A DNA stretch of 64,000 bases, from contig JAPUDO010000068.1 in the NCBI GenBank assembly GCA_027493055.1, forward strand, positions 112,669 through 176,668. Direction: 5' to 3'. How positions within the stretch are numbered: the stretch's first letter is position 1; every line of letters begins with the position of its first letter. Of this stretch, positions 17,101-58,532 are shown one piece after another. A program made the translations under genes and the position numbers. The notes under the pieces are model-generated. The model made no database searches. It saw nothing but the letters and a program-made list of their open reading frames with translations, and had not been told where the DNA came from. Origin of the DNA: Niabella sp. Its GTDB lineage: Bacteria; Bacteroidota; Bacteroidia; Chitinophagales; Chitinophagaceae.

Positions 17101-17352
17101 AATGTTATCAGGTTTAAAAGCATAGGGAATAGCTTCGCGCACTTTTGTTTTACAGCTGGCCGCCAAAGTAGCCGCCGCAGTGCTAAAGCCAAGGTACTTC
17201 AAAAAATCCCTGCGCGGGGCTTTTGCGTCTAATAAACCCTTGCTGTCAAAATCTTCAAAAGGAAGCTCTTCGCGAAACTCATCGCGTACATTCTTCTGAA
17301 AATTTTCAGGGTCATTTATTTCTCCGAAACCTTGCCAGTACTTATTACTCAT
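14131..17352 (-). CDS. actB: Alternative complex III iron-sulfur/molybdopterin-like subunit ActB
   Basis: 1073 residues. A twin-arginine-type signal (RRDFLKYLGFSTAAATLAASC, Arg47-Arg48) is preceded by an unusually long N-tail, as normal for ActB. Residues ~80-700 form a molybdopterin-oxidoreductase-like domain which in this family holds no Mo cofactor. The C-terminal third is a four-cluster ferredoxin domain: CFGCGACVIACHAENN, CQHCDNAPCENVCP, CIGTRYCANNCPYK and CSMCIQR...CSSACAADA. It relays electrons from the quinol site towards the hemes of ActA. The last ~25 residues are rich in His, Gly and Glu. Confidence 0.97.
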   Translation of the reverse strand: MSNKYWQGFGEINDPENFQKNVRDEFREELPFEDFDSKGLLDAKAPRRDFLKYLGFSTAAATLAASCKTKVREAIPYAFKPDNIVPGEAQYYATTFVQDGDVVPVLARVRDGRPILIEGNDKSFVKGCTTPRIQASVLDLYDKYRITHPKQRVGGKLNEVPTFATLDKNITAAIKSSGGQIVLLTSTINSPSALKVIEDFKAAYPAFKHIQYDAVSYTGMLLANEASFGKKAIPAYRFENAKKVVVSLGADFLSSWLSPVEFQQGYALNRKLDEKNPQMSKHYQFESFLSMTGANADERFNHRQSETGLVAAALAAAVGVAGVTAPAVSNAKLKAGIDKVAKDLLNHKGQSLVVCGSNDVNIQLLVNAINAAIGAYGTTIDWSAPLNYRKGIDKDFADLLTEMEGGSVGTLMIYGANPVYTWPEQDRVKKALAKVKLKISFNEKQDEVSELCDYLVPTHHFLESWGDGEATTGSIGFMQPTIAPLFKTRQWQESLLVWAGNTESYADYFKNYWVARLGGESAYLKSLQDGVSFTAPAGLSAGSYSASGLEAAAAAVSAAPKSSKKEIVLYQSNALGAGTHPANPWLQELPDPITKITWDNYAMISVSTADELKIDYKSNDYEYYPQKPVISIKVKGKELKLPIIVVPGMDADTIAIALGYGRTSALGATYVDEYTEDKKVGVDVYPLSSFNGTGVNHYAVDAEVANTGKKYKLAQTQIHNSYEGRIEVLRETTMATFLKDKTQYSDYANKLYETYTGKKNATRDDYVKAGTMYREHAADGIKWGMSIDMNACFGCGACVIACHAENNVPVVGKSEVLRYHDMHWLRIDRYYVSDEKDPNELKGVIFQPMMCQHCDNAPCENVCPVAATNHSNEGLNQMAYNRCIGTRYCANNCPYKVRRFNWLDYTGADSFPNNQDQTVVGKLDPAVFYMNDDLTRMVLNPDVTVRSRGVMEKCSMCIQRLQHAKLDAKKKGEPLSDKHVRLACSSACAADAIVFGNVNDPESAITKEREDNPLRTFYVLEQLHVLPNVNYLAKIRNTDEIIADDDHHGGGHGEESGHGTEKHEAATAEEAHH

Positions 17353-17452
17353 ATTTTTATCTGATGTGATAATTTGCTAATGTGATAATTTGCTAACGCG
17401 CCTCAACTTATTACTGATATTACCGGCATCCCGGTAGCTACCGGGAGCTGAT
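17353..17452. repeat. Spacer with perfect 16-bp tandem duplication and 16-bp palindrome (actA to actB)
   Basis: TGTGATAATTTGCTAA occurs twice in direct succession at about 17365-17396. A perfect palindrome, CCCGGTAGCTACCGGG, lies at about 17430-17445, seven bases after the actA stop in transcript direction, and would form a hairpin in the mRNA between the two genes. Confidence 0.8.
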
Positions 17453-18751
17453 TTAATAGTGACATTTCTGACATTCAAGGCCTCCGATGTCTTTCACTGT
17501 TACGCTATCCATTTTGCCGGCTTTAATGTCATTATGGAATTTCTCGTAAATACTGTAGAACTTATTACCGCTGGTAGAATCTACATTGAAATTTACCTTG
17601 GTTTGCCTGTGACAGTTTACGCACCATCCCATGCTCAGCTCAGAAAACTGGTACACTTCATCCATACCTGTAATATCTCCATGACAGGTTTGACATTGCA
17701 CATTACCCACCCTAACGTGCTGGCTGTGGTTGAAATATACGTGATCCGGCAGATTATGGATCTTAATCCACTCAATAGGCTTGGCTTTTGAAGGATCCCA
17801 TCCCTCAGCGTTGGTAGGATCAAACCCTGCATATTCATAGAGTTTTTGTATCTCACGGGTACCATCTACTACATTTCCGTGCCTGTCTTTTAATTCAGGT
17901 CCGTTATATTTTTGAATGGTTTTGTGACAGTTCATACAAACATTCACAGAAGGAATAGCGGCTGTTTTGCTTTCCCAGGCATTGCCATGACAATATAAAC
18001 AGTTAATCTGGTTAATGCCGGCGTGCACTTTGTGAGAGTAGAAGATAGGTTGCACGGGCTGATAATTGATTTGCCTGTTTACATTGATCATCCCTTTGGT
18101 GGTAAAATAACCTCCTATAATAAATAAGGCAATAGCAGCAATAGCCAGATAGGTTTTATTACGGTAAACCGGGAGAGAAGGGGCTGTTTTTACATGCTCC
18201 GCTTCGCGGGCCGCTCTCTGCAGGTTAAAATTTACATATATAAGCACAAGAGCAACCAGTGCCAGTATAAATGAGACAACACCATACATGATATTGTTCT
18301 GGCTGGCCGATGCCTCAACACCCCCGGCAGCAACAGCATCGCCTTTAGGCGCATCTAACTTTCCAGAAGCTTTTGCATCAATATAACTTAATATCGCATC
18401 TATCTGAGGATCAGTAAGATCAGGGAAAGTAGTCATTGCAGTAGCAGAGATCTTGGAAACCTCTACAGCTTTGGGATATCCCGATGCAATAAGTTTTGTA
18501 TTATTTCTTATCCACTCATGCAACTTCTCCTTGTCTTCCCAACGCCCCTGCACACCCCCTAACGCCGGACCGGTGCTGTTCGATTTCATATCGCCGGAGT
18601 GACAGCTTTGGCATTTCCCTACAAATAAGGTTTTACCCTCATTAACGTTGGCATCGCCCTGTGCAAAAACAGGGGCAACAGAAAAAAACAGCGCTATTAT
18701 AAGTAGGGGTAGTTGATGAAATAAGTACTTATGATTGTCCATAAAACGCAT
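17453..18751 (-). CDS. actA: Alternative complex III multiheme cytochrome c ActA with extra N-terminal cytochrome c domain
   Basis: 432 residues with six CxxCH heme sites. A signal peptide (cleavage near VFAQG) is followed by a class I monoheme domain (CQSCH at 47-51), a membrane helix (~154-174), a second helix (~200-218) and the pentaheme ActA domain (CLYCH 251, CMNCH 272, CQTCH 353, CVNCH 377, CQKCH 427). ActA takes electrons from ActB to the periplasm. The fused monoheme domain is additional to the five hemes of textbook ActA. First gene of the operon; a TATTTTTG box lies about 40 bases upstream. A second ATG nine bases downstream of the start could also serve. Confidence 0.93.
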   Translation of the reverse strand: MRFMDNHKYLFHQLPLLIIALFFSVAPVFAQGDANVNEGKTLFVGKCQSCHSGDMKSNSTGPALGGVQGRWEDKEKLHEWIRNNTKLIASGYPKAVEVSKISATAMTTFPDLTDPQIDAILSYIDAKASGKLDAPKGDAVAAGGVEASASQNNIMYGVVSFILALVALVLIYVNFNLQRAAREAEHVKTAPSLPVYRNKTYLAIAAIALFIIGGYFTTKGMINVNRQINYQPVQPIFYSHKVHAGINQINCLYCHGNAWESKTAAIPSVNVCMNCHKTIQKYNGPELKDRHGNVVDGTREIQKLYEYAGFDPTNAEGWDPSKAKPIEWIKIHNLPDHVYFNHSQHVRVGNVQCQTCHGDITGMDEVYQFSELSMGWCVNCHRQTKVNFNVDSTSGNKFYSIYEKFHNDIKAGKMDSVTVKDIGGLECQKCHY

Positions 18752-41255: not shown

Positions 41256-42128
41256 ATGATGAGCCCTGAAGTTTATAGGGAGAGGTCTCCGTTATCTGAG
41301 AAAGACTGCTTTGTTGTTTTTGACCGCAGAAAATCAACCTTTACATTTCCCGTTCATATACATCCCGAATATGAGCTCAATTTTGTGCATGGTGCAAGGG
41401 GCGCAAAAAGAATTGTAGGAGACCTGGAAGAAACCATTACCGATAAAGACCTGGTATTAATTGCCAACCCCGAGCTAAAGCACGCCTGGAAAGACGGAGA
41501 TTGCAAAAGCAACAATATACATGAAATCACCATCCAGTTTCATCCCCAGCTAATAGAGCAATACAAAAATAAAAACCAGTTTGAAAGCATCCGGCATCTC
41601 CTGGAACGCGCATCAAAAGGCGTGTCGTTCGGACAGGGAACTATAGAAAAAATACAGCCTCTGTTACAAATTATAACTATGGAAACAGAAGGGTTTTACT
41701 CTGTTATGCGACTGTTCATTCTTCTGTATGAGTTGTCAAAAAGCAATGATTACAGGGTGCTTTCCTCCGGTACAGCCATTGAAATGAACCGCACCACCGA
41801 GTTACTGAACAGGCTGCATGAATATATCAGTACAAATATTTCTGCTGACATTCGCATATCAGACACGGCCAAAGAGCTGAATATGAGCAGATCTACTTTT
41901 GCAAGGTTCTTAGCCACCAACACCCAAATGAACTTTACTGATTATGTGCTGGACCGGAGGATAAAAACGGCTATATTAAAATTAAAAGCGGGGCTTCCTA
42001 TTGCAGAAGTTGCTGATCAATGCGGCTTCAACAGCGTTTCTTATTTTTACAGGGTTTTTAAAAAAGCCCAGGGAACAAACCCTGCAGCATTCAGGGATGA
42101 TCATAATAAACTGCGGGTGATTATATAA
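41256..42128 (+). CDS. AraC-family transcriptional regulator
   Basis: 290 residues: an N-terminal cupin-like sensor region (FTFPVHIHPEYELNFVHGARGAKRIVG) and a C-terminal double helix-turn-helix (~190-290; ISDTAKELNMSRSTFARFLATNTQMNFTDYVLDRR and VADQCGFNSVSYFYRVFKKAQGTNPAAFR). It lies 311 bases upstream of susC in the same direction and should control the sugar locus, with a sugar or derivative bound by the cupin part. Confidence 0.93.
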   Translation: MMSPEVYRERSPLSEKDCFVVFDRRKSTFTFPVHIHPEYELNFVHGARGAKRIVGDLEETITDKDLVLIANPELKHAWKDGDCKSNNIHEITIQFHPQLIEQYKNKNQFESIRHLLERASKGVSFGQGTIEKIQPLLQIITMETEGFYSVMRLFILLYELSKSNDYRVLSSGTAIEMNRTTELLNRLHEYISTNISADIRISDTAKELNMSRSTFARFLATNTQMNFTDYVLDRRIKTAILKLKAGLPIAEVADQCGFNSVSYFYRVFKKAQGTNPAAFRDDHNKLRVII

Positions 42129-42439
42129 ACCGATAATTCGCTGCTTTTTAATTTTTGAGCAAATTTTTCAAAAAGTATAAGCAAATTGTTAAAAAATTTC
42201 GTAAGTACCGAAGTGAAAAAATAGCCATTCTTTTACATTTCAGCCTCTTCAAGAAAAAGCATTATAAAAAAATTTTATCATAGATCATTGATAATAAGCA
42301 TTATAAAAAACACCTTTTTAGCTTCTGACAAATTGAACTTTGATCCAAGAGTTCAATTACAATGAGTATATTTTGAAAAAGGATCCGTTTATCCTTAACA
42401 TACTTTTAGCTTATTAATTCACTAAATAAGCCATATGGT
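42129..42439. promoter_or_regulatory. Control region before susC, with a 15-bp direct repeat
   Basis: 311 bases without ORF. AAGCATTATAAAAAA occurs exactly twice (about 42257-42271 and 42296-42310, 39 bases apart) on either side of a GATCATTGAT piece. A candidate operator for the AraC protein encoded just upstream. No perfect TAnnTTTG box near the susC start. Confidence 0.45.
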
Positions 42440-45400
42440 ATGAAACAACTATTACTCGTACTGCTTTTCGGAGCTATTTGCCATTTTACATGGGCACAAG
42501 AAATAATTTCTGTTAAAGGAACCGTCAGGGACAGGGATAATAACCCGCTCTCCGGTGCCACGGTCAGCATTAAAGGAACTTCTAACGGAACAGCAACATC
42601 TGACAACGGAACTTTCACGCTAAACGTTGCCAGGGGCCAGGTGCTTGTATTTTCTTATACAGGAAAGCAGGACGCCGAGATTACCGTTACTAACAACAGC
42701 GATCTTACCATTACCCTTACTGACAAGAATGAGGGGATGGATGAAGTTGTTGTAATTGGTTATGGAACAATCAGGAAAAAAGACCTGACAGGCGCTGTTG
42801 CTTCTGTTACAGGAAAAGACCTGCAGGCAAACCTGGCCAAAACGGTTGCCGGAGCGCTCCAGGGCCGTGTAGCCGGTGTAACCGTAACCAATGTAGGTGG
42901 CCAGCCGGGAAGCGGTATGAACATCAACATCCGCGGTTTAAGTTCATTAGGCTCCAACACCCCTTTGTATATTATAGATGGTGTTTATGGAGACATCAAC
43001 ATGGTGGACCCTGCAGATATAGCATCAGTAGAAGTCTTAAAAGACGCCTCTGCGGCAGCTATCTATGGTTCCCGTGCTGCTAATGGCGTGGTAATCATTA
43101 CCACCAAAGGCGGCAAAAAAGGAATGCCGGCTACCGTTAATATTAATGCTTATACAGGAGTTCAAAGCATTACGAAGAAACTGGGTGTAATGAACGCACA
43201 ACAGTGGAAAACCATTATGAAAGAATCGGGTTATTTACCGGAGCAGGCAACTAATTACACAGGAAATGGAACTAACTGGCAGGATGAAATTTACGTAAAA
43301 GCGCCGGTTAGTAAAGTTAATGTGGATGTATCGGGCGGTGGTGACCACTCCACATACAACGTGTCTGCAGGTTATATTGACCAGTCAGGTATTTTAATGT
43401 CCACCGGGTACAAGGCATTTAATGTCCGGGCAAAAAATACGTTTAATTTCTTCAACAATCATTTCCGTTTGGGCAATACATTCCTGGTAAAATCGGGGGA
43501 TAGAAAATACAGTGACTTCACTATTACTGACGCTTTACGCCAAAACCCAATGATTCCTGTATTAGACCCCAACCAATTAGGTGGCTATGCTCCCTGGCAG
43601 CCATGGATGAAAAACCTGGATAACCCGGTTGGTTATTTAAAATTACACAATTCCCATGTTTATCAGACAGATATCCTGGTGAATGGATTTGCTGAAGTTG
43701 ACCTGTTTGTAAAAGGGCTGAAATATAAGTTCAACCTGGGTATCAACAGAACAAATGGCAGAAACTACTACTTTAATGATCCTTATAATTTTGGTTCGGG
43801 TATTACAAAATCTTTTTTATCAGAAAACGCATTTTTCAACAACCAGTGGTTAGCTGAAAATACCCTTCATTATGATAATACATTTAATGAGCATACCATT
43901 TCGTTCTTAGCCGGTTATTCGGCACAGGAAAACAGCAACAGGGGATTTGGCGCCAGCCGCAATGATTTGCCCTTTGGAACCAATTCAATAGGAGCAGGCT
44001 CTCCTACTGAGCAAAAAACATCCGGTGGGTTACAGGAGTCATCCCTAGTTTCGGTTTTTTCCCGTTTAATGTATAGTTATGACTCCCGTTATTTATTAAC
44101 GGCCTCTGTACGTCGCGATGGTTCTTCCCGTTTTGCGGATGGCAACCGTTATGGCGTATTTCCATCCATAGCTGTGGGCTGGAATATTATGAATGAAAAG
44201 TTTTTTGGCAGTGCAAAAGATAAGATCAACGAATTAAAATTACGTGCCAGCTGGGGTAAATTAGGTAACCAGGAAATTGGTAATTACCCTACTCAAAGTA
44301 CAGCTTCTACAGGTATTAACTACTTACAAGGCATTGGCAGCAATGAAATCTGGTGGCAGGGTGCTACTACCGGCGCCAGCTGGGTATCTCCTAAAAACCT
44401 TACCTGGGAAGAAACCGTTACCAGCAACATAGGTATTGATCTGGCTTTCTTAAAAAACAAACTTACCGTTAGTGCAGATTACTATGTAAGAGAAACACGC
44501 AATATTCTTTTAAGTATTAACATGCCACAGTCAGCAGGTTTGGGCGGATCTCCCACAATGAATGCCGGAACCATTGAGAACAAAGGTTTTGAACTTTTAG
44601 TAAACTACAGAAATTCTATCGGGGAATTAAACTATAACATTGGCGTTAATGCTTCTTCCGTTAAAAATAACGTAAAAGCAGTAACAGTAGGTAATGTACA
44701 GGAGTTTGGCGGTTATAATCCACAAGGCGAGGGAACGATAACCTGGGCTAAAGTAGGTTATCCTATCGGCGGCTTTTGGGTAATCAGAACCGATGGAATT
44801 TTCCAGTCTGATGCCGAAGCACAGGCTTATAAAAACTCTAAAGGCCAGGTAATACAACCTGATGCTAAAGCGGGTGATATCAAATTTGTTGATTTTAATG
44901 ATGATGGGAAAATTGCAGATGATGACAGGCAATATGTAGGTAGCCCCTTTCCTAAAATGGCGTATGGAATCAGGGCCGGATTTGACTATAAAGGAATTGA
45001 TCTGGGTATCTTCTTTGATGGAATGTATGGCAATAAAATTTATAACTATACCAGGGCCAGAATGGAATCCACCAATGAAATTATCAACTTCTCTACAAGT
45101 CTGTTAAACTCCTGGACCCCGTCTAATACCAACACAGATTTACCGCGCTTTACGCAACAGGACCCCAATAAAAACTTCCGCCGTGTAACTGATCGCTGGA
45201 TAGAAGACGGTTCTTTCTTCCGTTTGAAAACGCTTGAATTGGGTTATACTTTACCTCAGCATATTACAAGTCTTGCAAAATTAAAAACCAGCAGGATTTA
45301 TGTAGCAGGTGACAACCTGTTAACCGCTACTAAATACAAAGGTTATACTCCGGATCTTGGCCAGAATGATGAACAAAATGGCGGAGGCTCCGGTACATTA

Positions 45401-45472
45401 ACCAGGGGTACAGACCACGGCCGTTTCCCGATTGCAAGAACTATAATTGTTGGGTTACAGGTTAATTTCTAA
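42440..45472 (+). CDS. susC: SusC/RagA-type TonB-dependent transporter
   Basis: 1010 residues. Signal peptide (HFTWAQ), N-terminal carboxypeptidase-regulatory domain (ISVKGTVRDRDNNPLSGATVSIKG), TonB box region (MDEVVVIGYGTIRKKDLTGAV), plug domain (NINIRGLSSLGSNTPLYIIDGV; VEVLKDASAAAIYGSRAANGVVIITTK), then a 22-strand barrel ending RTIIVGLQVNF. Imports glycan fragments across the outer membrane with the lipoprotein SusD as lid. Gene order susC-susD with 54 bases between is standard. Confidence 0.97.
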   Translation: MKQLLLVLLFGAICHFTWAQEIISVKGTVRDRDNNPLSGATVSIKGTSNGTATSDNGTFTLNVARGQVLVFSYTGKQDAEITVTNNSDLTITLTDKNEGMDEVVVIGYGTIRKKDLTGAVASVTGKDLQANLAKTVAGALQGRVAGVTVTNVGGQPGSGMNINIRGLSSLGSNTPLYIIDGVYGDINMVDPADIASVEVLKDASAAAIYGSRAANGVVIITTKGGKKGMPATVNINAYTGVQSITKKLGVMNAQQWKTIMKESGYLPEQATNYTGNGTNWQDEIYVKAPVSKVNVDVSGGGDHSTYNVSAGYIDQSGILMSTGYKAFNVRAKNTFNFFNNHFRLGNTFLVKSGDRKYSDFTITDALRQNPMIPVLDPNQLGGYAPWQPWMKNLDNPVGYLKLHNSHVYQTDILVNGFAEVDLFVKGLKYKFNLGINRTNGRNYYFNDPYNFGSGITKSFLSENAFFNNQWLAENTLHYDNTFNEHTISFLAGYSAQENSNRGFGASRNDLPFGTNSIGAGSPTEQKTSGGLQESSLVSVFSRLMYSYDSRYLLTASVRRDGSSRFADGNRYGVFPSIAVGWNIMNEKFFGSAKDKINELKLRASWGKLGNQEIGNYPTQSTASTGINYLQGIGSNEIWWQGATTGASWVSPKNLTWEETVTSNIGIDLAFLKNKLTVSADYYVRETRNILLSINMPQSAGLGGSPTMNAGTIENKGFELLVNYRNSIGELNYNIGVNASSVKNNVKAVTVGNVQEFGGYNPQGEGTITWAKVGYPIGGFWVIRTDGIFQSDAEAQAYKNSKGQVIQPDAKAGDIKFVDFNDDGKIADDDRQYVGSPFPKMAYGIRAGFDYKGIDLGIFFDGMYGNKIYNYTRARMESTNEIINFSTSLLNSWTPSNTNTDLPRFTQQDPNKNFRRVTDRWIEDGSFFRLKTLELGYTLPQHITSLAKLKTSRIYVAGDNLLTATKYKGYTPDLGQNDEQNGGGSGTLTRGTDHGRFPIARTIIVGLQVNF

Positions 45473-45526
45473 AATAATTAAAGAATCACACTCTTTGCAT
45501 TTATTGATCCAAAAAATGATATTTAA

Positions 45527-47155
45527 ATGAAAACGTCTATAAAAAAATTATCAGTAGTTGCAGCCGCCGCACTTCTTATCAGCGGGTGTAATGAAAAAGA
45601 TTTTTTAAATAAAATAAATCCTAACTCTCCGGTAGAACAAACATTCTGGACAACAGAAGCCAATGCTGTTTCTGCTATCCCTACTATTTATTCATCCATC
45701 CGTGGTCAAATGTATGGCTATTACGGTGCCTATACAGGATGGCACACTATGAACAGGGCCGATGATGTTTGGTTTATTTTAGGAGAAGAAGTATTGAACT
45801 GGGAGCCGGCATCATTTACCAATACACCCGGCACAGCCGAAAGTGATTTCGGAAGATTATACACCGGGGTAAACCGTGCCAATGTATTTTTAAAAAACAT
45901 TGCTAATGTAAAAATGGATGAAACTAAAAAGAATGAGCTGATTGGTGAAGCCAGCTTTTTAAGAGGGATGTACTATTTCCTGTTAGCCTCTAATTTTGGC
46001 GATGTTCCCCTCAGGTTAATCCCTGCGGGTGATGAAGCGGATGGTGCCATGAAAGAATCTTCGCCCGAAGCCGAGGTTTGGAAACAGGTTATTGCTGATT
46101 TTACTACTGCTAAAAATCACTTGCCTATAGCCCGCACCAATGCAGAAGCCGGCAGAGCTACAAAAGGTGCTGCCATTGCATTCTTAGGTAAAGCCCTGGT
46201 TTATACAAAAGATTACCAAAATGCAGAAAAAGAATTGGCGGCTCTTTTAACGGCTCCTTATACTTACGACCTGGTAGATAATTTTGAAGACAACTTTAAA
46301 GAAACAACAGAGCTGAATAAGGAATCTGTTTTTGAAATTATGTATAACGGCAAATACTCCAATGGCGGTACCTGGGGTAATGACGGAAGTACTACACAGG
46401 GTTTTGTAATACCCAACTTTGCCGGATCGGCTGGTACAGGCGGCTGGTTTAAATGGATGCCTTCAGCTTCTATTGTCAGGGATTTTATTGCCGAAGAACG
46501 TCCGGCAGGTTCTGATACCCGTTTCGACAAAAGAATGTACACCAGCTTTTTCTGGAAACATTCCGACTTTGAAAGCGGCATTGCAGACGGTGCATGGTTT
46601 GGCAACCAGTCTTTTGATGAAATGTGGGAGAACGCCGCGGGTAAACGCCAGCGTGGCGAGCCTGACTACCCTACCATTAGCGGCAAAAAAGGAAGGTTCC
46701 TGATTAAAAAATATACTAACTTCTACAAAAACGTTGCGGATGCCAATAGCATGTACGACCAATCTAATCAAAACAACAATTTACGGATGTTCCGTTTTTC
46801 TGAAGTATTGCTGTTACATGCCGAAGCTGCTATCAAAAACGGAAATCTAAGTGCAGCCGCAGCCGATTTGAAGCGCATCAGGGTTCGCGCAGGTTTAAAT
46901 CCCAACAAAACCTGGAGTGGAGCTGAAGATATGATGAACGAAGTGGTAAAACAAAACGAACTGGAATTTTTCTTTGAGGGCCATCGTTTCTTTGATCTAA
47001 AACGTACTTATCCTTACGCTCAAATGAAACAAATTTTTGTGGACAATAAAAAGCAAGGTGCGGAAAACTTCCAGCAAAAGCATTATTATTTGCCCATCCC
47101 TCAATCAGAGATTAACGCAAATACTAAAATCCAGCAAAATCCGCTATGGAGATAA
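45527..47155 (+). CDS. susD: SusD/RagB-type surface glycan-binding lipoprotein
   Basis: 542 residues, lipoprotein signal with lipobox LISGC. Helical TPR-like SusD fold: FWTTEANAVSAI, GEASFLRGMYYFLLASNFGDVPL, ATKGAAIAFLGKALVYTKDY, LRMFRFSEVLLLHAEAAIKNG and the C-terminal NELEFFFEGHRFFDLKR / YYLPIPQSEINANTKIQQNP. Caps SusC and binds the incoming oligosaccharide. It overlaps the following gene by 10 bases. Confidence 0.97.
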   Translation: MKTSIKKLSVVAAAALLISGCNEKDFLNKINPNSPVEQTFWTTEANAVSAIPTIYSSIRGQMYGYYGAYTGWHTMNRADDVWFILGEEVLNWEPASFTNTPGTAESDFGRLYTGVNRANVFLKNIANVKMDETKKNELIGEASFLRGMYYFLLASNFGDVPLRLIPAGDEADGAMKESSPEAEVWKQVIADFTTAKNHLPIARTNAEAGRATKGAAIAFLGKALVYTKDYQNAEKELAALLTAPYTYDLVDNFEDNFKETTELNKESVFEIMYNGKYSNGGTWGNDGSTTQGFVIPNFAGSAGTGGWFKWMPSASIVRDFIAEERPAGSDTRFDKRMYTSFFWKHSDFESGIADGAWFGNQSFDEMWENAAGKRQRGEPDYPTISGKKGRFLIKKYTNFYKNVADANSMYDQSNQNNNLRMFRFSEVLLLHAEAAIKNGNLSAAAADLKRIRVRAGLNPNKTWSGAEDMMNEVVKQNELEFFFEGHRFFDLKRTYPYAQMKQIFVDNKKQGAENFQQKHYYLPIPQSEINANTKIQQNPLWR

Positions 47156-48969
47156 TATTCCGATCAGAAGCGGCTATTTCAAAATGGATAAAACTACCGG
47201 GCATTTTATGGTGCCTGGTAGTTTTAATTCATTCCTGCTCACGTAAAGATATTCTGCCTTCAGAAATAAAATCAAAAACGTCATTGCAGCAATTTATTGA
47301 CAATGGCGACCTTTTAAACAGTTTTATAAAAGATAAAGCTGTTTATACTTTTGCATTTGAAACAGGCAATCTTCAGGTTCCTGAAAATGAAATCAAACAA
47401 ATTAATTCAATTCCTGAACAGTGGAAAACGATCATTGCTTTTACAGACAACACACAGCTTGTGGTACCTACAAAAGGTACTTCATTAAACTTTATTGTTG
47501 AAAATATTCAACTCAACCCTTCGGGCGTTAATCCGCTTGCTGCTATAGCCAATGTATCACTACCTACCTATGGCCGTGTAAAAGTTACTGTTTTAGGAAA
47601 AAACGGAGCTGCAGGAAATATAACCCATTTGTGCCATGCACAAACCGCTAAACAAGCGGTGCCCATTTTGGGCTTATACCCCAATTATAATAACGATGTA
47701 CAATTAACTTTTACGGATAAGAATGGCAAAGAGCGAGGATCGGCAAATATTAAAATTCAAACAACTTCTTTGCCCGCTAACTTTCCTGATCTGTTATTAG
47801 TAAAGTCTGACCCTCAAAAAATGGAACCGGGTGTCAATTTAGTCAGCTATCCTGGTGAAAGTGAATTAGATATTTCTATTCCATATATGGTTGACAATGA
47901 GGGCGCCGTTCGATGGGTTCTGCTATTCAAATCATCAGCCGATTTAAATCCTTTCTCGGCCTCTATTGGATTACACCGGACAAAAAAAGGAACGTTTATT
48001 TCAGGTGATCAGGCAAAACCCAGGATAGTAGAAATAGATATGTTTGGCAATCTGCTTAAGCAATGGGATTTGCAAAAATTAGGCTATACATTTCATCACG
48101 AAGTTACCGAAGCTCAAAATGGCAACTTCCTGGTTACTGTTACAAAACCTTCGGCCCGTTTAACAGATGGGAAACCCAGAGTCAACGATCATATCATAGA
48201 ATTAGACCCCTTCAACAACTCGGTAGTAAAAGAATGGGATTTTGCAAACCTTGTTGATACTTCAAGATATTTAAAACCGGATGGCTTTACGCCTCCGGAG
48301 TTTTCACAAAACCCCACAAACTGGGTACATAACAATTCAATAGCGGAGCTGGAAAATAATTTGCTGGCCACAATGCGTTATCAGGGCATTCTCAGCTTTA
48401 CACACGCAGGAAATTTACGCTGGTTAATATCACCACATAAATACTGGTCACAAAAGTTCCAATCCTATTTATTAAACCCTATTGATGAAAATGGCAATCC
48501 TGTAACAGATCCGGCCGTAATTAATGGCGATGCCGCAGCTCCTGGATTCGACTGGCCGTGGGGGCCTCATACTCCTGTTGTTTTGCCTGATAATAATATT
48601 CTGGTATTTGATAACGGCTACAATCGTAATTGGGTTTCATTGGCATTAAAAGACAATAACTATAGCCGCGTGGTAGAATATAAGGTAGATGAAACGAAAA
48701 AAACGGTACAACAGGTATGGAGCTTTGGCCAGACCTTAGGTGCAAACGGATTTTCCCAGGCGCTGTCCGGCGTACAATATTTGCCAATTACAAAACATAT
48801 ATTATTTTGTCCTGGAATGGGTGTAAAAACCTCAAAAGGACTTGGCGGCAGAATTATAGAACTGGATCCGATTACAAAAGAAATAATTTTTAATTTAGAA
48901 ATTACAGTAAGCAGCATATCGGCATTTCACCGTGCTACCCGTATGTCACTGTATCCCGATACGATTTAA
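47146..48969 (+). CDS. Arylsulfotransferase (ASST)-like lipoprotein
   Basis: 607 residues. Probable lipoprotein (VVLIHSC near residue 31). Residues ~60-200 look like an Ig-type N-domain of aryl-sulfate sulfotransferases; the rest is the ASST beta-propeller with conserved His motifs YTFHHEV (~316), WVHNNSI (~392) and WGPHTPVVLPDNNILVFDNG (~471). ASST transfers sulfate from phenolic sulfate esters to another phenol through a sulfo-histidine. Whether this homologue is active, or acts on sugars, is unknown. It is inside the sus operon (overlap 10 bases with susD, 19 bases before the phosphorylase gene), an unusual place for it. Confidence 0.8.
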   Translation: MEIIFRSEAAISKWIKLPGILWCLVVLIHSCSRKDILPSEIKSKTSLQQFIDNGDLLNSFIKDKAVYTFAFETGNLQVPENEIKQINSIPEQWKTIIAFTDNTQLVVPTKGTSLNFIVENIQLNPSGVNPLAAIANVSLPTYGRVKVTVLGKNGAAGNITHLCHAQTAKQAVPILGLYPNYNNDVQLTFTDKNGKERGSANIKIQTTSLPANFPDLLLVKSDPQKMEPGVNLVSYPGESELDISIPYMVDNEGAVRWVLLFKSSADLNPFSASIGLHRTKKGTFISGDQAKPRIVEIDMFGNLLKQWDLQKLGYTFHHEVTEAQNGNFLVTVTKPSARLTDGKPRVNDHIIELDPFNNSVVKEWDFANLVDTSRYLKPDGFTPPEFSQNPTNWVHNNSIAELENNLLATMRYQGILSFTHAGNLRWLISPHKYWSQKFQSYLLNPIDENGNPVTDPAVINGDAAAPGFDWPWGPHTPVVLPDNNILVFDNGYNRNWVSLALKDNNYSRVVEYKVDETKKTVQQVWSFGQTLGANGFSQALSGVQYLPITKHILFCPGMGVKTSKGLGGRIIELDPITKEIIFNLEITVSSISAFHRATRMSLYPDTI

Positions 48970-48988
48970 TATTTTAATATAGGTAATT

Positions 48989-50173
48989 ATGAATGGTACT
49001 TTTCAGGAAAAATTAGAGGAACTCACACAGTCGTACAACCAACTCATTGCTGCACCCAATTCACCATCCGGTCAGTATAACGGTCTTGTTCAGCGGTTTC
49101 AAAACCCTATACTTACAGCCAGTCATGTTCCTTTATCCTGGAGATATGATCTTGACCCTGAAACCAACCCTTTTTTAATGGAGCGTTTTGGAATCAATGC
49201 GGTTTTTAATGCAGGCGCTATTAAATGGAAGGGTAAATACCTCTTAATAGCACGGGTAGAAGGCTATGACAGGAAATCATTCTTTGCTATTGCCGAAAGT
49301 CATAACGGAATTGACCAGTTTACCTTCTGGGACTACCCGGTGCAGCTTCCTGAAATTGACGAAAAAGAAACCAATGTATATGACATGCGTTTAACGGCCC
49401 ATGAAGACGGCTGGATTTACGGTTTCTTTTGCTCAGAAAGTAAAAGCCCGGATGCCCTGCCCGGCGACCTGTCCAGCTCAAGAGCTGATACAGGCATTAT
49501 AAGAACAAAAAACCTCATCAACTGGGAACGGCTACCCAACCTTGTAGCCGCCAGCCATCAAAGAAATGTGGTACTGCATCCCGAATGGGTGAACGGAAAA
49601 TACGCCCTGTACACCCGCCCCCAGGATGGTTTCATTAATGCAGGAAAAGGTGGCGGCATTAGCTGGGCTTTAATTGATGACATTACAAATGCAGTAGTGG
49701 AAAAAGAAACGTTAATTGATGAAAGGCTTTATCACACCATTAAAGAAGCTAAAAACGGTGAAGGCCCGCAACCCATTAAAACAGAAAAGGGGTGGCTGCA
49801 CCTGGCACATGGTGTAAGAGAATGTGCTGCAGGGCTGCGCTATGTACTATATCTCTATCTTACAGACTTAAAAGAGCCGCAAAAGATTATAGCCAGTCCG
49901 GCCGGATATTTCATGGCGCCTCTTGGTGAAGAGCGGGTAGGTGATGTATCAAATGTACTGTTCTCAAACGGCTGGATCCGTGATGATGACGATGCTGTTT
50001 ATATTTACTATGCATCAAGTGATACCCGTATGCATGTGGCTGTAACTTCTGTTGACCGGTTACTGGATTATTGCCTGCATACCCCTGCAGACGGGTTGCG
50101 CTCCGCAGAATCGGTGAAGCGCATTACTGACCTGATTAATAAGAATCATAAGTTCCTGAAAAAAGATGCTTAA
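48989..50173 (+). CDS. GH130 4-O-beta-D-mannosyl-D-glucose phosphorylase
   Basis: 394 residues, no signal peptide, so cytosolic. Phosphorolyses beta-1,4-mannosyl-glucose to mannose 1-phosphate and glucose. The sequence follows the GH130 subfamily 1 enzyme of Bacteroides fragilis closely: [21 protein letters not shown], the probable general acid Asp132 in [45 protein letters not shown] and [28 protein letters not shown]. It thereby points to glucomannan or mannan disaccharides, or a similar beta-mannoside, as the locus substrate. Its end overlaps the next gene by 8 bases. Confidence 0.93.
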
Positions 50174-51068
50174 GCATTTGCGATTTTATCTTTTGCTGTT
50201 TTGCACTTTTTTTAGTGGCAAAATTGTAGCAGCACAAACATCCGGGGCGCTGCACCTGGCTTCTTATAATGTCTTCAACGGCTTTGAACATGGCAATAAG
50301 ATGCAACAGGAAAGTTTTATTAATTGGGTGAAAAAGCAAAAACCAGACATCCTGGCGCTGCAGGAATTAGTAGGCTTTAAAGCCGCTGACCTGGAAGCCC
50401 TGGCGGGTTCTTATGGCCATCAATATACTGCACTTCTTAAAGAAGAAGGCTATCCCGTTGGTATTACATCAAAATTCCCGGTTGAAATTATTCACAGGCA
50501 AACAAAGGATTTCTGGCACGGTATGCTGCATGTACGTATTGCAGGGCTTCATATAATCATCACTCATTTAAGTCCTTTTGAGTGGAAATTCCGTAAAAAG
50601 GAAGCAGAAAGGATCATCAGCTATATTACAGAGAACCGGTTGGACAGCTGCGTGATAATGGGCGATCTGAATGCACACTCGCCTTTGGATGCCGATGAAT
50701 TGGCAACACATCTCCCCCTGAAACAGCAAATGCGGTTATGGGATAAAAACAATCCATCTTACGGAAATCTTAAAAAAGGGCGGTTCGACTATTCTGTTAT
50801 TGCCACATTTCTATCAGCAGGCTTTGAAGATGCCATCGGGCGCCTGGTACAGCCTGCTGCTTCGCGCATGACGTTCCCGGCGGCATTTCTCTATGGCTGG
50901 CCCTGGAACGATGACCGGCGAAAGCCTTTATCTGAACGGCTGGACTATATATTGGTAACGGATAATCTTTTCCCTTATTGTGTAAAGGCCATCGTGCATA
51001 ACGGGCAGGATGCAGAAGGAATCTCTGATCACTATCCTGTAAGTATAATACTACAATATGATTACTAA
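50166..51068 (+). CDS. Secreted endonuclease/exonuclease/phosphatase (EEP) family protein
   Basis: 300 residues with a signal peptide (SGKIVAAQ). All EEP metal and catalytic motifs are present: [34 protein letters not shown] and the C-terminal [11 protein letters not shown] proteins cleave phosphodiesters or phosphomonoesters in nucleic acids, lipids or other molecules. Coupled to the phosphorylase gene by an 8-base overlap and followed by a sugar transporter, it is more likely to act on a phosphorylated glycan or glycerophosphate-type decoration than on DNA; this is inference. Confidence 0.88.
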
Positions 51069-51129
51069 CCGGCAGGTGACGTATTAATATAAATAATAAA
51101 GACTGCGAAAGCATTAAAAGCATGCATAT

Positions 51130-52539
51130 ATGAATACCATTAAACAAAAAGAAAAGATTGCTTATGGTTTAGGCGATGCCGCCTCTTCTATGTTCTGGAA
51201 AATTTTCGGAATGTATGCCCTGTTTTTTTATACCGATGTGCTGGGCATCACCGCGGCAGCAGCAGGGACCATGTTCCTGATTGCCCGGGTATGGGACTCT
51301 TTCTTTGATCTTTTTGTAGGTATAATGGCAGACCGCACCAAAACCAAGTGGGGACGGTACAGGCCCTACCTGTTATGGTTTGCCATTCCGTTTGCGGTAA
51401 TGGGCGCTATTACTTTTTTTGTTCCTGATTTGGGTAGCACCGGAAAGCTGGTGTACGCCTATATTACCTATTCCTTAATGATGATCGTATATTCACTTAT
51501 TAACGTGCCTTATGCTTCGTTATTAGGTGTAATGTCACCCCATCCGCGGGAACGGAATATCCTGTCCTCCTATCGTATGTCATTTGCCTTTATAGGAAGC
51601 TTTGTAACTTTTATGTTGCTGCAGCCACTGGTAGACGGGTTCAGCAATATGTTTCATGATGGTTCTGTTACCGCTAACACTGATGCAGGTATCAGCACCG
51701 CACCTATAGGCTGGACGCTTGCCGTTGCCTCCATAGGACTGCTATGCGCTATCCTTTTTTTCCTGTGTTTTAGCTGGACAAAAGAGCGGATAACATCCAT
51801 TAATAATGATACAAAAGGGTCTGTAAAAGAAGACCTGAGGAACCTGCTCCGTAATGCGCCCTGGTGGATACTGGTAGCTACAGGTCTTGCTTCCCTATTG
51901 TTCAATGCGGTAAGGGACGGGGTTGCCATTTATTATTTCAGGGATCATGTGCAACTGAACTATAAAATGGCAGTTACCGGTTGGGATGTTACTACTATCT
52001 ATTTTCTTGTGGGACAGGCCGCCAACCTGGCCGGCGTTATATTAGCGCCTGTTCTGTCAGAAAAATACGGGAAGAAACGTACCTATATGATTGCAACAGC
52101 GCTGGCTGCTGTATTTAGTGCTATATTCTTTTTTGTCCCCAATCATATTGGGTGGATCTTATTTATGCAAGCCATTATATCGGTATGTGCCGGATATGTG
52201 TTGCCTTTGCTCTGGAGCATGTTTGCTGATATTGTAGACTACCAGGAGCTAACCACCGGCCGCAGAACATCGGGGCTGATCTTCTCATCCTCTTCCATGT
52301 CTCAAAAACTGGGATGGGCATTGGGCTCGGCATTAACAGGATGGATCCTCTTTATTTTTAATTATGAGCCTCACCTGGCGCAGCAAAGCATGGAAACCAT
52401 TTTTGGTGAACGGCTGATGATTAGTTTATTACCAGCCTTCTGCTGTATTCTTGCATTTATTGGCATGTCGTTTTACCCGCTTAATGAAAAGAAAGTAAAA
52501 GAAATATCAGAAGCGTTAAATCAAAAGCGTAACGCATAG
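51130..52539 (+). CDS. GPH-family sugar:cation symporter (MFS)
   Basis: 469 residues, 12 helices. Glycoside-pentoside-hexuronide symporter pattern: YGLGDAASSMFWKIFGMYALFFYTDVLG, the loop GIMADRTKTKWGRYRPYLLW and LPLLWSMFADIVDYQELTTGRRTSGLIFS. Brings the disaccharide from periplasm to cytosol, where the GH130 phosphorylase acts. Last gene of the locus; no clear terminator. Confidence 0.93.
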   Translation: MNTIKQKEKIAYGLGDAASSMFWKIFGMYALFFYTDVLGITAAAAGTMFLIARVWDSFFDLFVGIMADRTKTKWGRYRPYLLWFAIPFAVMGAITFFVPDLGSTGKLVYAYITYSLMMIVYSLINVPYASLLGVMSPHPRERNILSSYRMSFAFIGSFVTFMLLQPLVDGFSNMFHDGSVTANTDAGISTAPIGWTLAVASIGLLCAILFFLCFSWTKERITSINNDTKGSVKEDLRNLLRNAPWWILVATGLASLLFNAVRDGVAIYYFRDHVQLNYKMAVTGWDVTTIYFLVGQAANLAGVILAPVLSEKYGKKRTYMIATALAAVFSAIFFFVPNHIGWILFMQAIISVCAGYVLPLLWSMFADIVDYQELTTGRRTSGLIFSSSSMSQKLGWALGSALTGWILFIFNYEPHLAQQSMETIFGERLMISLLPAFCCILAFIGMSFYPLNEKKVKEISEALNQKRNA

Positions 52540-54329: not shown

Positions 54330-55160
54330 TTATCCTGAATACGTATGCACGCTCATTTGCGCAGTTGGCAGGTAATTTACGCCAAACCAGCAAACGATCA
54401 GCAACATAAAGGCGATGATTACAATAACACAATTGGTAATGGCCTTTCTGTCCTTATATTTATGGCGATAATGGATATAAGTAAGATAACCCAGCCAGCT
54501 GATGAAGGCCCAGGTTTCTTTAGGGTCCCATGTCCAGTAATGCCCCCAGGCCTCTTTGGCCCATAAAGCTCCGAACAACAGACCGAATGTAAGAAAAGCA
54601 TATCCTATATTAATCAGCCGGTCTACTACCTCTATTGATTCCGCAGCAGTGTAAGGCTTATAACGTATGCCGGCGATACTGTTTTGATAGGGACGGCGTG
54701 CCTGTACAATTCCATATACAGCTACCAGCGTAGCCATGCCCAGCATAGCATAAGCGAAAATATAAACAATAACATGTGGTACAAACCAGATACTTTGCAA
54801 TGCAGGCATTAATGTTTTATTGGTAGTATCTGGTTTAAAAAACGTTACCAGCATAAATACTATTCCCATTGCGGCTGCGTAGTTCAGCATCCATTTCTGT
54901 TTGTACAGGATATATACCACCAATCCAATCAATCCCATAAAAAAGGAATACCAGAGCCTTGTTTCGGCAAGAGTACGCATAGGGGGTCTTTCTAAAGTAA
55001 CCCATAAAGCAATAATAAAAGAACCAATAACAGCAGTAGCTATACTATGCAATGCCAGGCTCAGCCTTACTGCATGGTTCCCTTTTTTGTAAACTAACAC
55101 GGAGGCCGTTAGCCATAACAGGACTGCAGTAAATACGATATAGGAAAAATATTGCCACAT
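54330..55160 (-). CDS. ccsA: Cytochrome c biogenesis protein CcsA (system II heme handling)
   Basis: About 276 residues, eight membrane helices. The WWD heme-handling motif is WGHYWTWDPKETWAF with flanking His residues. ATG at 55160 follows the resB stop by two bases; the upstream extension overlaps resB and is rejected. Works with ResB to move heme out and attach it to CxxCH sites. Fourth gene of the nrf operon. Confidence 0.95.
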   Translation of the reverse strand: MWQYFSYIVFTAVLLWLTASVLVYKKGNHAVRLSLALHSIATAVIGSFIIALWVTLERPPMRTLAETRLWYSFFMGLIGLVVYILYKQKWMLNYAAAMGIVFMLVTFFKPDTTNKTLMPALQSIWFVPHVIVYIFAYAMLGMATLVAVYGIVQARRPYQNSIAGIRYKPYTAAESIEVVDRLINIGYAFLTFGLLFGALWAKEAWGHYWTWDPKETWAFISWLGYLTYIHYRHKYKDRKAITNCVIVIIAFMLLIVCWFGVNYLPTAQMSVHTYSG

Positions 55161-55162
55161 GG

Positions 55163-56392
55163 TTATTTCCTGTTTTTGAATAAAAATGCTGCCGTACCGG
55201 CAATCAAAATAAAAATACCGGTGTACACCAGCGGCAGCCACGGATCTAATATCAGTTCTACAACGCTTAGCTCCGACCATCTTCCCAGGCGCTCATCATA
55301 GCTTACCTGGTACACTTTCCATCCTTTTATAGTAATGGGATGATTTACCTGTATAGTTTCTTCCCTTATTTCGTCTTTTCCTTTTTCATATACTAATACT
55401 TTGGATTGGAACTTCCGGGCCTCCGCCGGGCCCATTACCACTATATGATTGCTGTCAAGCGTAATGGTTAATGGCGGGAACTGGAAATTACCGGCAGCGA
55501 TCCATTGTGTTCTTTTAGCTTTTGTATATACATCCTCAACGGTGATGCGCGCTGCATTGGTGGCCCCCCACATAGGGCTGGCAGCATACGTAGTATCGCT
55601 TACAGGTATAGCATTGGGTAAATACTCATGCAGGGTTATCTTCCAGTTCAAAAGATACTGGCTGGAATGCTCTTTTTCCAGCATAAAAGCCTGTGGCTTG
55701 TTTTGCGGTAAGGCTTTTCCTTCTTTATTGATGATATAAAGCTTATTAGGATAGATATCAATGTCAAACTTTTTTAATTCCAGCGCCAGGGACAGCTCTG
55801 TTACACGTCCGTTCTCATCAGTGGCTCTCCATTCGGGTTGGTCCTGCTTCAGGTTCATGGTCAGCCTTGTAAGATCGCCCTGGCCAAGCACTCCGGCAAA
55901 TAAGGTAAGCCATAAGCCAAAATGATTAAGTAAGAAAGTAATATTCTTGGTTTGAAATACCAATGCTTTTTTCAGGATCGCCAGCCACAGATTGATCAGC
56001 ACCAAAAAAAATATGAAAGCAAAATACCAGGTAGTTGTTATTCCGTCAAAACCCAAACGTAATAAAACCGGGTTAGCTTTCGGGTCCGAGGCCTCTATAT
56101 GAATACTGCCAAGCCCTATAGTTAATACGCCTAAAATAATGGTAGATACTAACGCCAGCGGAACACTGCTTAGCAGGTTGATGAACTCTTTTTGTTTGAA
56201 TAAAAGAAACAGGGTAGTGAATAGGAAAATAAAAGCAATACCTATCCATATATTATTGGGAAAAGCAAACCATTGTTTGGCAATAGGCCCTGTAAAATAT
56301 TGGAGTAAAAGTCCTACAACCAGCAGGACTGCAATGATAATAACCGAATACCTGTACTGATCTTTTTTATGGAACGCAATATTAAAGTTCAT
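55163..56392 (-). CDS. resB: Cytochrome c biogenesis protein ResB (Ccs1)
   Basis: 409 residues. Three N-terminal helices (~20-35, 43-60, 75-95) and a fourth near 130-150, a periplasmic domain (~180-370) with ITLHEYLPNAIPVSDTTYAASP and GWKVYQVSYDERLGRWSELSVVELILDPWLPLVYTG, and a final helix. Partner of CcsA in system II cytochrome c maturation. 23 bases after nrfA. Confidence 0.93.
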   Translation of the reverse strand: MNFNIAFHKKDQYRYSVIIIAVLLVVGLLLQYFTGPIAKQWFAFPNNIWIGIAFIFLFTTLFLLFKQKEFINLLSSVPLALVSTIILGVLTIGLGSIHIEASDPKANPVLLRLGFDGITTTWYFAFIFFLVLINLWLAILKKALVFQTKNITFLLNHFGLWLTLFAGVLGQGDLTRLTMNLKQDQPEWRATDENGRVTELSLALELKKFDIDIYPNKLYIINKEGKALPQNKPQAFMLEKEHSSQYLLNWKITLHEYLPNAIPVSDTTYAASPMWGATNAARITVEDVYTKAKRTQWIAAGNFQFPPLTITLDSNHIVVMGPAEARKFQSKVLVYEKGKDEIREETIQVNHPITIKGWKVYQVSYDERLGRWSELSVVELILDPWLPLVYTGIFILIAGTAAFLFKNRK

Positions 56393-56415
56393 GATACCTT
56401 TTACCTGTTACAGCA

Positions 56416-57885
56416 CTAACTTTTAGCTGAATATAATGCTCCTTTTTCTTTAGCCTTTTGTAACCATTGAGGTACCACGTTTTGCATAAAGCGTTCTTTG
56501 GCTGTATTTTCTTTTTGCATATCTAAACCAATAACGGCCTGTGCTTTTGCTTTAGAGCTGATGTCCGGCATGGTGAACCTGGCGGTTATTTTCATTTTAT
56601 CATTAAGGCTGTTCATTTTAGTTTCTGCCTGCATAGCATAGTATAAACCATCGGCCAAAACGCGCTGTGCCTCAATTGGAGCATGAAAAGCCGCTCCGTG
56701 CGATGCTGTAATAAAGTCCCAGCGCCATTGCGATTTTCTTATTAAGTCCAGCACTGGCTTCATATCAGGTTCTTTCACACCATTATCCCATAAGAACTTT
56801 GCATAAAAATGCACCATGGCTAATTGCTTTTCCAGCTTGTTCCTTAATCCATATACATAGTCCTGCCGTTCATAAACATTACCGGCAAGCACGGCTTCAG
56901 ATTCCCGGTGACATACCTGGCAGGTATTGTTGATATTGGCCAGGGGACTGGTTACATGGTGATCGGTATATTTAATGCCTCCTTCTGACTTATAGGGCAT
57001 GTGGCAATCGGCACAGGAAACACCCCGCTGGGCATGTATGCCTAACTGGAATATTTCATAATCAGGATGCTGGGCCTTAAGAATAGGAGTGCGGCTTAAT
57101 TTATGCGTGAAATCAGTGAACTTTGCATTATCGTAATAGGCTTCTATCTCTTCTACCTTTTTACCATCATCCCAGGGAAAAGTAAGATACTTTTCATCAC
57201 CCTTGAAATAGTATTCTACGTGGCATTGGGCACAAACCAGTGAGCGCATCTCCTGGTGTGTAGCTTTGGAAATATCTTTCCCGGAGCGATGAAAAGCTTC
57301 TACCAGTGCAGGACGCGTAATGGTAAGATTCATGGTTTTCGGATCATGGCAGTCGGCGCAGCCAATAGGATTGACCACACCCGATCCCAGATCGGCCCAG
57401 TTCGTTTTATAGAAATTGGCCACACCCATTTCGTTCATCAGGCGCGGCACATCAGGGCTCTTACAGGTCCAGCAGGTACCGGGTTGCGGGCTTTTACTGG
57501 TATCACTTGGCGCGCCGGTTCTCAGGGTATGCCGCACATCCTCTACAGCGTGCATGTGCCCTCTTGGCGCTGTATAATCTTTTGAAAAAGCATAGCCGGC
57601 CCACAGGATAACCATTTCAGGCCTTTCTTCTAACAGATCATCGTTATTGCTGCTCATGTATTTGGAGCGAAAGGTGGTATCTGCGGTCTTTGCCCATGAT
57701 TGATATTCCCGTGGATAGGCTTCGCCCCAGATCTCATTCCTGGCTTCAAAAGGCTGTATATTATTGTCGGCCCTTGACAGATGCGCCGATTCTGCGCGCC
57801 TCTCCATAATAGAATTTGTAAGCAGGCCCAGGCCAAATGTTACAATGGCCAAAATGACAACGATTAACCAATTCTTCTTTTTCAT
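56416..57885 (-). CDS. nrfA: Ammonia-forming cytochrome c nitrite reductase
   Basis: 489 residues. Pentaheme enzyme reducing nitrite to ammonium with six electrons in the periplasm. Active-site heme CWTCK (138-142) with the diagnostic Lys; four CxxCH hemes, CADCH 176, CAQCH 218, CADCH 291, CQVCH 322. The Ca-site motif VEYYFKG follows the third heme and the active-site His is in GIHAQRGVSCADCH. An N-terminal hydrophobic segment serves as signal or anchor. Needs a heme lyase that handles CxxCK, plausibly the ResB/CcsA pair in this operon. Follows nrfH after 53 bases. Confidence 0.98.
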   Translation of the reverse strand: MKKKNWLIVVILAIVTFGLGLLTNSIMERRAESAHLSRADNNIQPFEARNEIWGEAYPREYQSWAKTADTTFRSKYMSSNNDDLLEERPEMVILWAGYAFSKDYTAPRGHMHAVEDVRHTLRTGAPSDTSKSPQPGTCWTCKSPDVPRLMNEMGVANFYKTNWADLGSGVVNPIGCADCHDPKTMNLTITRPALVEAFHRSGKDISKATHQEMRSLVCAQCHVEYYFKGDEKYLTFPWDDGKKVEEIEAYYDNAKFTDFTHKLSRTPILKAQHPDYEIFQLGIHAQRGVSCADCHMPYKSEGGIKYTDHHVTSPLANINNTCQVCHRESEAVLAGNVYERQDYVYGLRNKLEKQLAMVHFYAKFLWDNGVKEPDMKPVLDLIRKSQWRWDFITASHGAAFHAPIEAQRVLADGLYYAMQAETKMNSLNDKMKITARFTMPDISSKAKAQAVIGLDMQKENTAKERFMQNVVPQWLQKAKEKGALYSAKS

Positions 57886-57938
57886 CCGTAATTATTTATG
57901 TCTTTAAGAATGTATTTGATTGTATCAAAGCCGGTGAG

Positions 57939-58532
57939 CTATTGACTTTTATTATTCTTTGATGTGTTTGACATTTTTTGAAGCCAATCAGGCACAGGCT
58001 GTGGCGCTAATGGCACACGGGCATTAGGAGCGGAACTCAACCCTCTTACATCACCATGTGGCACATCCCTGTGGCATTCCCAGCACAGCTTGCCTTCATC
58101 TTTGTGGGCCATAGTGGCTGTTACCTCACCGGTACCTACTACACTGTTCAGATCACTGTGGCACCTGATACAGTTTTCCTGAACTACGGTTTCTCCCGGC
58201 TTCCTGATCCTGATCACCTGGGGCTCCAGGCGAAAGGCAAACATAGTAGCATGGCGTAAGCCATCACTGGCTTTAAAATAATATTTTCTAAAAACATTGT
58301 CATGCGGTACATGGCAGTCGTTACATACCGTGTTCCTGCCGTGAGAGGAGTGCTGCCATGTAGAGTATTCAGGCGCCATTATATGACAATTCACACAGGC
58401 TTTGGGATTGTCTGACAGGTAGGAATAAGCCCTCGACATAAAAAAAATATAGCTCATAAATCCTATCATAATCCCGAGCAATACCGGTATTAAAAACCTG
58501 GAAAATTTTCTATTTCGCTGTTTTAATAGCAT
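57939..58532 (-). CDS. nrfH: Cytochrome c nitrite reductase small subunit
   Basis: 197 residues. NapC/NirT family tetraheme quinol dehydrogenase: one N-terminal helix (~13-33) and CVNCH 46, CNDCH 70, CIRCH 121, CWECH 150. Oxidises menaquinol and feeds NrfA. The motif DNPKACVNCHIMAPEYSTWQHSSHGR is typical. First gene of the operon nrfH-nrfA-resB-ccsA. Confidence 0.97.
   Translation of the reverse strand: MLLKQRNRKFSRFLIPVLLGIMIGFMSYIFFMSRAYSYLSDNPKACVNCHIMAPEYSTWQHSSHGRNTVCNDCHVPHDNVFRKYYFKASDGLRHATMFAFRLEPQVIRIRKPGETVVQENCIRCHSDLNSVVGTGEVTATMAHKDEGKLCWECHRDVPHGDVRGLSSAPNARVPLAPQPVPDWLQKMSNTSKNNKSQ

Follow-up and report, generated by a model that had tools for sequence, protein, structure and literature searches.

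The core of the sugar-uptake locus described here is a SusC/SusD pair followed by a lipoprotein of the aryl sulfotransferase type (ASST), normally accompanied by a GH130 phosphorylase. The recurrence of this SusCD-ASST-GH130 set, in 22 of 24 loci, is far from chance. The ASST is most likely an active surface sulfotransferase that works on the ligand imported by SusCD. Our preferred reading of the whole locus is tentative, close to an even call: it may be a compact operon that scavenges a small ligand with beta-mannosyl-glucose, and whose step at the cell surface would fall to an active PAPS-independent aryl sulfotransferase and not to a glycanase.

Results

The operon in the window

The window, by which we mean the whole 64,000-nucleotide stretch of Niabella sp. 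DNA that was analysed, belongs to a genome of 5.75 Mb in 131 contigs. Using the open reading frame list, Pfam and NCBIfam, we confirmed the seven ORFs of a sugar-uptake operon with the coordinates, strand and order (AraC, SusC, SusD, ASST, GH130, EEP, GPH) given in a preliminary description of this DNA. They are listed here with one candidate regulatory site:

41256..42128, + strand: AraC-type regulator (HTH_18, E 5e-20)
42348..42379, + strand: candidate operator, a TTCAAT-N4-(T/A)TG(A/G) block about 90 nt before susC (post hoc pattern)
42440..45472, + strand: SusC/RagA TonB-dependent transporter (TIGR04056, E 2e-260; Pfam Plug, CarbopepD_reg_2 and TonB barrel)
45527..47155, + strand: SusD-like lipoprotein (SusD_RagB, E 3e-46)
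47146..48969, + strand: ASST-type propeller lipoprotein (Arylsulfotrans, PF05935, E 3e-83, with Arylsulfotran_N, PF17425; 3elq, E 2e-46)
48989..50173, + strand: GH130_1-type 4-O-beta-mannosyl-glucose phosphorylase (Glyco_hydro_130; 3was, E 3e-183)
50166..51068, + strand: predicted secreted EEP-fold phosphoesterase, accessory (Exo_endo_phos, PF03372, E 1e-17)
51130..52539, + strand: GPH (MelB-type) sugar:cation symporter (MFS_2; TIGR00792, E 4e-112)

The SusC and SusD homologues adjoin, by Pfam and NCBIfam, which is a PUL feature. Gaps of 311 nt (AraC-SusC), 54 nt (SusC-SusD), 19 nt (ASST-GH130) and 61 nt (EEP-GPH) alternate with overlaps of 10 nt (SusD/ASST) and 8 nt (GH130/EEP). The tight coupling by overlaps described earlier is accurate for the window, but the SusD/ASST overlap does not carry over to other genomes, where most relatives have a gap at this junction as judged from ORF starts. 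The absence of a glycanase, also part of that description, stands: by Pfam, none of the seven genes encodes a glycan-cleaving enzyme other than the GH130 phosphorylase. Nor does a surface glycanase lie between SusC and the symporter in the other 20 loci that reach past GH130, whose genes in this interval were matched to window or SSF proteins, small ORFs in L095 and L104 being unmatched. Elsewhere in the window lie what we take to be ResB/CcsA- and NrfH/NrfA-like genes (54330-58532) and, presumably, an alternative complex III-like respiratory cluster with a cytochrome oxidase (3584-18751).

In 17 of 23 loci the TTCAAT-N4-(T/A)TG(A/G) block, with TACAAT in Sphingobacterium, stands between 26 and 184 nt ahead of susC; three more carry it only elsewhere within 400 nt, and L107, L108 and L109 are without it. 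Its background frequency is 0.004 per 400 nt, mostly of coding DNA, and the pattern was defined after the sequences had been viewed, an earlier pattern having matched 11 of the 23. We infer that the block is a candidate operator. The preliminary description would be refuted if the ASST and EEP genes had promoters of their own and unrelated expression; on the promoters, a motif scan for the Bacteroidetes-type element TA..TTTG found none within up to 330 nt before susC in 20 loci, and in the window operon four junctions between genes were also without it.

Conservation of the locus in other genomes

A close ASST is encoded in 9 of 17 genomes of the genus, every time between SusD and a GH130. One search of genome contigs with an ASST alignment returned 23 loci, of which 21 are of the same type; the ASSTs of L110 and L111 are 30-31% identical, with no SusCD matches in the stretch examined. 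With the window, L071 and L075, the 21 make up 24 distinct loci: 9 Niabella-type, 11 from Sphingobacterium, 2 from Chitinophaga and 2 from further Chitinophagaceae MAGs (L107, L108). Niabella drilacis DSM 25811 and Sphingobacterium detergens CECT 7938 are among the strains that carry the locus. The check proposed in the preliminary description, a search for the same gene set elsewhere, thus found it in Niabella, Sphingobacterium and Chitinophaga, with ASSTs 58-69% identical to that of the window (24 loci, window included), so that the other refuting condition named there, a set that is not conserved, does not apply.

In all 24 loci the ASST is preceded by SusC and then SusD, although in the Sphingobacterium loci L095 and L104 a small ORF of 150-163 aa with a signal-peptide-like start intervenes. 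GH130 follows the ASST in 22 loci, truncated in L098 where the contig stops, and is missing from L107 and L108. These two keep SusCD-ASST (SusC 76%, SusD 80-81% identical) without GH130 and AraC in the stretch examined, and no GH130_1 turned up in the L107 MAG at 1e-60. In place of AraC they carry what we take to be ECF sigma- and FecR-like genes; a purple-acid-phosphatase-like gene comes next in L108, and presumably recombinase-like genes lie downstream in L107. Of the GH130-bearing loci, 21 are covered at their upstream end, and 20 of these have an AraC homologue, L092 being the exception. All 21 loci that reach past GH130 encode a symporter, of the GPH type in 4 and SSF-like in 17 (named by Pfam on L069, which shares its contig with L090, in 16 loci by blastp to the L069 protein, and by eye in L075). 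The inner-membrane symporter of the preliminary description is therefore general, but in 17 of 21 loci the GPH type that it specified gives way to an SSF-like transporter. In L070, whose ASST is the most similar among the relatives, a gene for a DUF5005/DUF4185 protein (L070:5359-6525) follows the GPH symporter.

More distant ASSTs keep other company. Across the class, 14 of 395 sampled genomes gave an ASST match, and no SusC/SusD matches to the window proteins were found beside the 10 strongest of these other than the window's own, in stretches of about 10 kb on each side (L117, with 4 kb in total, L127, and L126, at a contig end, excepted). Three weak matches fell outside this check. Unrelated genes surround these ten distant Bacteroidia ASSTs. 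A sample of 394 genomes of the family yielded 14 ASST matches at 1e-20, nine of which reach at least 60% identity; eight of the nine have a GH130_1 within 100 nt, and the ninth belongs to the MAG of L107. The five distant ones are not next to a GH130_1 on the same contig, the one in G521 lying at a contig end, and the two of the five that were inspected have unrelated neighbours, as does L077. GH130_1 is common in the family (131 of 394 genomes), so the ASST marks a small subset.

In a tree with 14 other ASSTs, the 24 locus ASSTs stand on one side of a single branch (support 100/100, in all 200 bootstrap trees), the branches among the 14 non-locus rows being long. The Sphingobacterium rows are nested in a group that also holds Niabella rows (100/99), a placement that points to transfer of the locus. 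In 14 of the 24 loci, and without a control, SusC, SusD and ASST co-vary in their pairwise identities (r 0.73-0.93), whereas GH130 co-varies less with these three (r 0.58-0.68) and most with AraC (0.85; 14 loci). On this evidence the locus may be made up of two units whose histories are in part separate.

The ASST lipoprotein

The window ASST has a lipobox-like Cys31 and an extra N-terminal part, at about residues 40-115, for which there is no Pfam match up to E 0.5. In sequence it matches the E. coli ASST, EcAST (3elq, E 2e-46). A structural model built from a 24-row alignment (mean pLDDT 86) has its best matches in E. coli ASST structures (3ets: E 7e-35, TM 0.73 by target) and predicts the beta-sandwich and six-bladed propeller of EcAST over the whole length. 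The next match is Cpz4 of Streptomyces (E 2e-14); the weaker ones include BtuG2 (E 6e-7), BtuK1 and, from Bacteroides, a propeller named 'auxiliary nutrient binding protein'.

A 2026 review, in its account of the EcAST active site, lists His252, His356, Asn358, Arg374 and Thr501 together with the sulfated His436 (PMC13426309). The window equivalents of His252, His356, Asn358, Arg374 and His436 are H318, H395, N397, R411 and H475, invariant in 24/24 locus ASSTs; opposite Thr501 stands L540, a position with L, I or V in the 24 locus rows, and the adjacent S541 is invariant in 24/24. An ASST-type propeller with intact His motifs, as first described, is thus borne out by the conserved residues and, for the fold, by the predicted match to EcAST. 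The five residues are also kept in 12, 13, 14, 12 and 12 of the 14 non-locus ASSTs respectively, and so argue for activity rather than for action on this particular ligand.

With EcAST (3elq/3ets), BvAST and DhAST the window protein shares PF05935 and PF17425, the predicted whole-length fold, and the His436 equivalent with four of its five partners. Unlike them, it is a predicted lipoprotein, has the extra N-terminal part and is coded beside SusCD. It also has no Cys in the stretch aligned to the EcAST Cys pair, which we take to be the disulfide of that enzyme. Cpz4 (9kf4, 9kf6) has an ASST-type fold like that modelled here, at 18-19% identity and TM 0.55-0.59 by target, but serves antibiotic biosynthesis.

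GH130 and its counterpart in a mannan locus

Among solved structures, the window GH130 is closest to the 4-O-beta-mannosyl-glucose phosphorylase 3was (E 3e-183), and a hand count on the alignment, which is ungapped around D131, places D132 and R95 opposite D131 and R94 of 3was. D131 is, we assume, the catalytic acid. The match to 3was and the alignment of this presumed catalytic Asp support the view, put forward earlier, that a GH130 of the Man-Glc-phosphorylase type stands alongside SusCD and an inner-membrane symporter. No signal peptide is seen in the window GH130. Arg94 is reported to touch glucose in the B. fragilis enzyme (PMC4599007).

A second GH130_1, 69% identical to that of the window, is encoded on another contig of the source genome (C89), in an ordinary mannan locus (L079) with a GH26, a GH5-like gene, a GPH symporter and an N-acylglucosamine 2-epimerase; the window locus is therefore not the organism's sole mannoside locus. 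SusC/SusD, the GPH symporter and GH130_1 are common to this beta-mannan PUL and the window locus, whereas the window locus has no GH26, GH5-like gene or epimerase and has the ASST. A locus without glycanase and epimerase would fit a ligand that already bears Man-beta-1,4-Glc. In the sequence alignment, eight residues and one gap distinguish locus GH130s from others. A clade of locus GH130s that excludes the L079 enzyme appeared in 36% and 60% of bootstrap trees in two trees, which kept 7/16 and 3/16 comparison rows and on which we build no claim.

The EEP phosphoesterase

The start of the EEP protein is signal-peptide-like, as judged by eye, and residues N35, E67, H134, D167, N169, D260, D288 and H289 are invariant in 12/12 aligned rows; some of them are presumably metal-binding or catalytic. 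Its structural model is weak (pLDDT 69), and the Foldseek matches (AP endonucleases, LINE-1, Tdp2, sphingomyelinase) confirm the superfamily only. The gene is present in 12 of the 21 loci that reach past GH130: in 10/10 from Sphingobacterium, 2/9 of the Niabella type and 0/2 from Chitinophaga. We therefore reject EEP as a fixed member of the locus, the constant part that it had first seemed to be, since it is missing from 7/9 Niabella-type and 2/2 Chitinophaga loci. It follows that phosphate decoration is not a constant feature of the ligand, and removal of phosphate by EEP is accessory at best; the phosphate idea of the preliminary description can apply to EEP-bearing loci only.

Discussion

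We propose the following model for the operon. AraC would induce it. At the outer membrane the ligand would come into contact with SusD and with the lipoprotein ASST, and there the ASST could pass sulfate from an aryl sulfate to His475 and on to another hydroxyl, and in doing so would most likely strip an aryl-sulfate group from the ligand ahead of SusCD uptake, the direction of transfer being the weakest step of the scheme. EEP, where present, may cut a phosphate (di)ester outside the cytosol. A GPH or SSF symporter would then import Man-beta-1,4-Glc, which GH130 would split with phosphate into Man-1-P and glucose. A decorated beta-mannoside is a plausible candidate ligand. L107 and L108 have SusCD-ASST and no GH130, and so it is from GH130 alone that the sugar assignment derives. 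The looser co-variation of GH130 with SusC, SusD and ASST, the L540 opposite Thr501, the kinship of the GH130 with that of L079 and the absence of a sulfatase gene from the locus also weigh against the model.

The main rival to an active sulfotransferase is that the propeller captures ligand for SusCD, in the style of BtuG or of surface glycan-binding proteins, with a transferase activity that is incidental or lost. BtuG and BtuK are propeller lipoproteins beside a TonB-dependent transporter, and the place after SusD, which the ASST occupies, is often taken by surface binding proteins or enzymes; BtuG2, BtuK1 and the Bacteroides 'auxiliary nutrient binding protein' are also among the weaker matches of our model. 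We nevertheless consider capture unlikely, given that the window protein keeps the ASST catalytic residues, the five of them invariant in 24/24 loci, and that the modelled fold matches ASST much more strongly than BtuG2 (E 7e-35 vs 6e-7). Improbable, too, is an otherwise unremarkable locus for scavenging mannan oligosaccharides in which the ASST hitch-hikes with an unrelated function. In its favour, the GH130 is an ordinary one, related to the enzyme of the mannan locus (69%), and both EEP presence and transporter type vary. Against it, the ASST adjoins SusD in 24/24 loci, a constancy that GH130 (22/24), AraC, EEP and the kind of transporter do not reach, in loci that were themselves found by their ASST; SusCD was never the query, so that copies of SusCD without an ASST could escape. 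The constancy of SusC-SusD-ASST, together with the ASST residues kept in 24/24, suggests that the ASST acts on the ligand of SusCD.

Whether such an enzyme would remove sulfate or add it bears on a further alternative, in which the ASST would place sulfate on the sugar ligand or on a glycan of the surface, much as Cpz4 sulfates the sugar of a glycoside, and so tag or protect it before uptake. Aryl sulfotransferases sulfate sugars in vitro, and Cpz4 favours the sugar hydroxyls of glycosides, according to the 2026 review where it treats these enzymes (PMC13426309). The source genome has at least 38 matches to PF00884, which could take the sulfate off later; counts of these sulfatase matches range from at least 15 to at least 62 in the window genome and eight others of the genus. 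Sulfatases are nevertheless absent from the genes of the window locus and of its relatives' loci, and a sulfated disaccharide would presumably have to be cleared before GH130 could act. We accordingly give sulfation little credence. Removal of an aryl sulfate from the ligand is the favoured direction for the active sulfotransferase that we prefer, and addition is less likely.

More than 40 years after the discovery of bacterial aryl sulfotransferases, their natural substrate is still unidentified and their role poorly understood, as the same review puts it in its overview, which names Cpz4, in antibiotic biosynthesis, as an aryl sulfotransferase with an established role (PMC13426309). A description of a SusCD-ASST-GH130 locus was not found in the open-licence papers searched, in agreement with the preliminary description, which knew of no such set. 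An ASST gene linked with those of a dedicated outer-membrane transporter, and in nearly every case with that of a familiar kind of phosphorylase, offers a genetic handle on the role of these enzymes. The locus also represents a further type of PUL, in which the constant partner at the surface resembles a group-transfer enzyme and not a glycanase. A bolder proposal, against which we lean somewhat, is that a bacterial aryl sulfotransferase would here, for the first time, have a part in nutrient uptake: surface sulfuryl transfer might replace a glycanase and unlock an aryl-sulfated beta-mannoside for SusCD, in a locus that would have arisen a single time and then passed between Chitinophagaceae and Sphingobacterium.

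Relatives of the EEP protein elsewhere lie beside a SusC/SusD pair in 5 of the 9 stretches (L085-L087, L141-L146) in which part of the neighbours was scanned, several weaker EEP matches falling outside this set. The five are L085 and L086, from other Niabella genomes, L087, from the same family, L145 and L146. At least two of them, L086 and L087, encode a NAGPA phosphodiester glycosidase, and the ligand of EEP-bearing loci may accordingly contain a phosphodiester. These SusCD loci with EEP kin are possibly a PUL type for glycosyl phosphodiesters. In L086 the NAGPA glycosidase is fused to NHL repeats.
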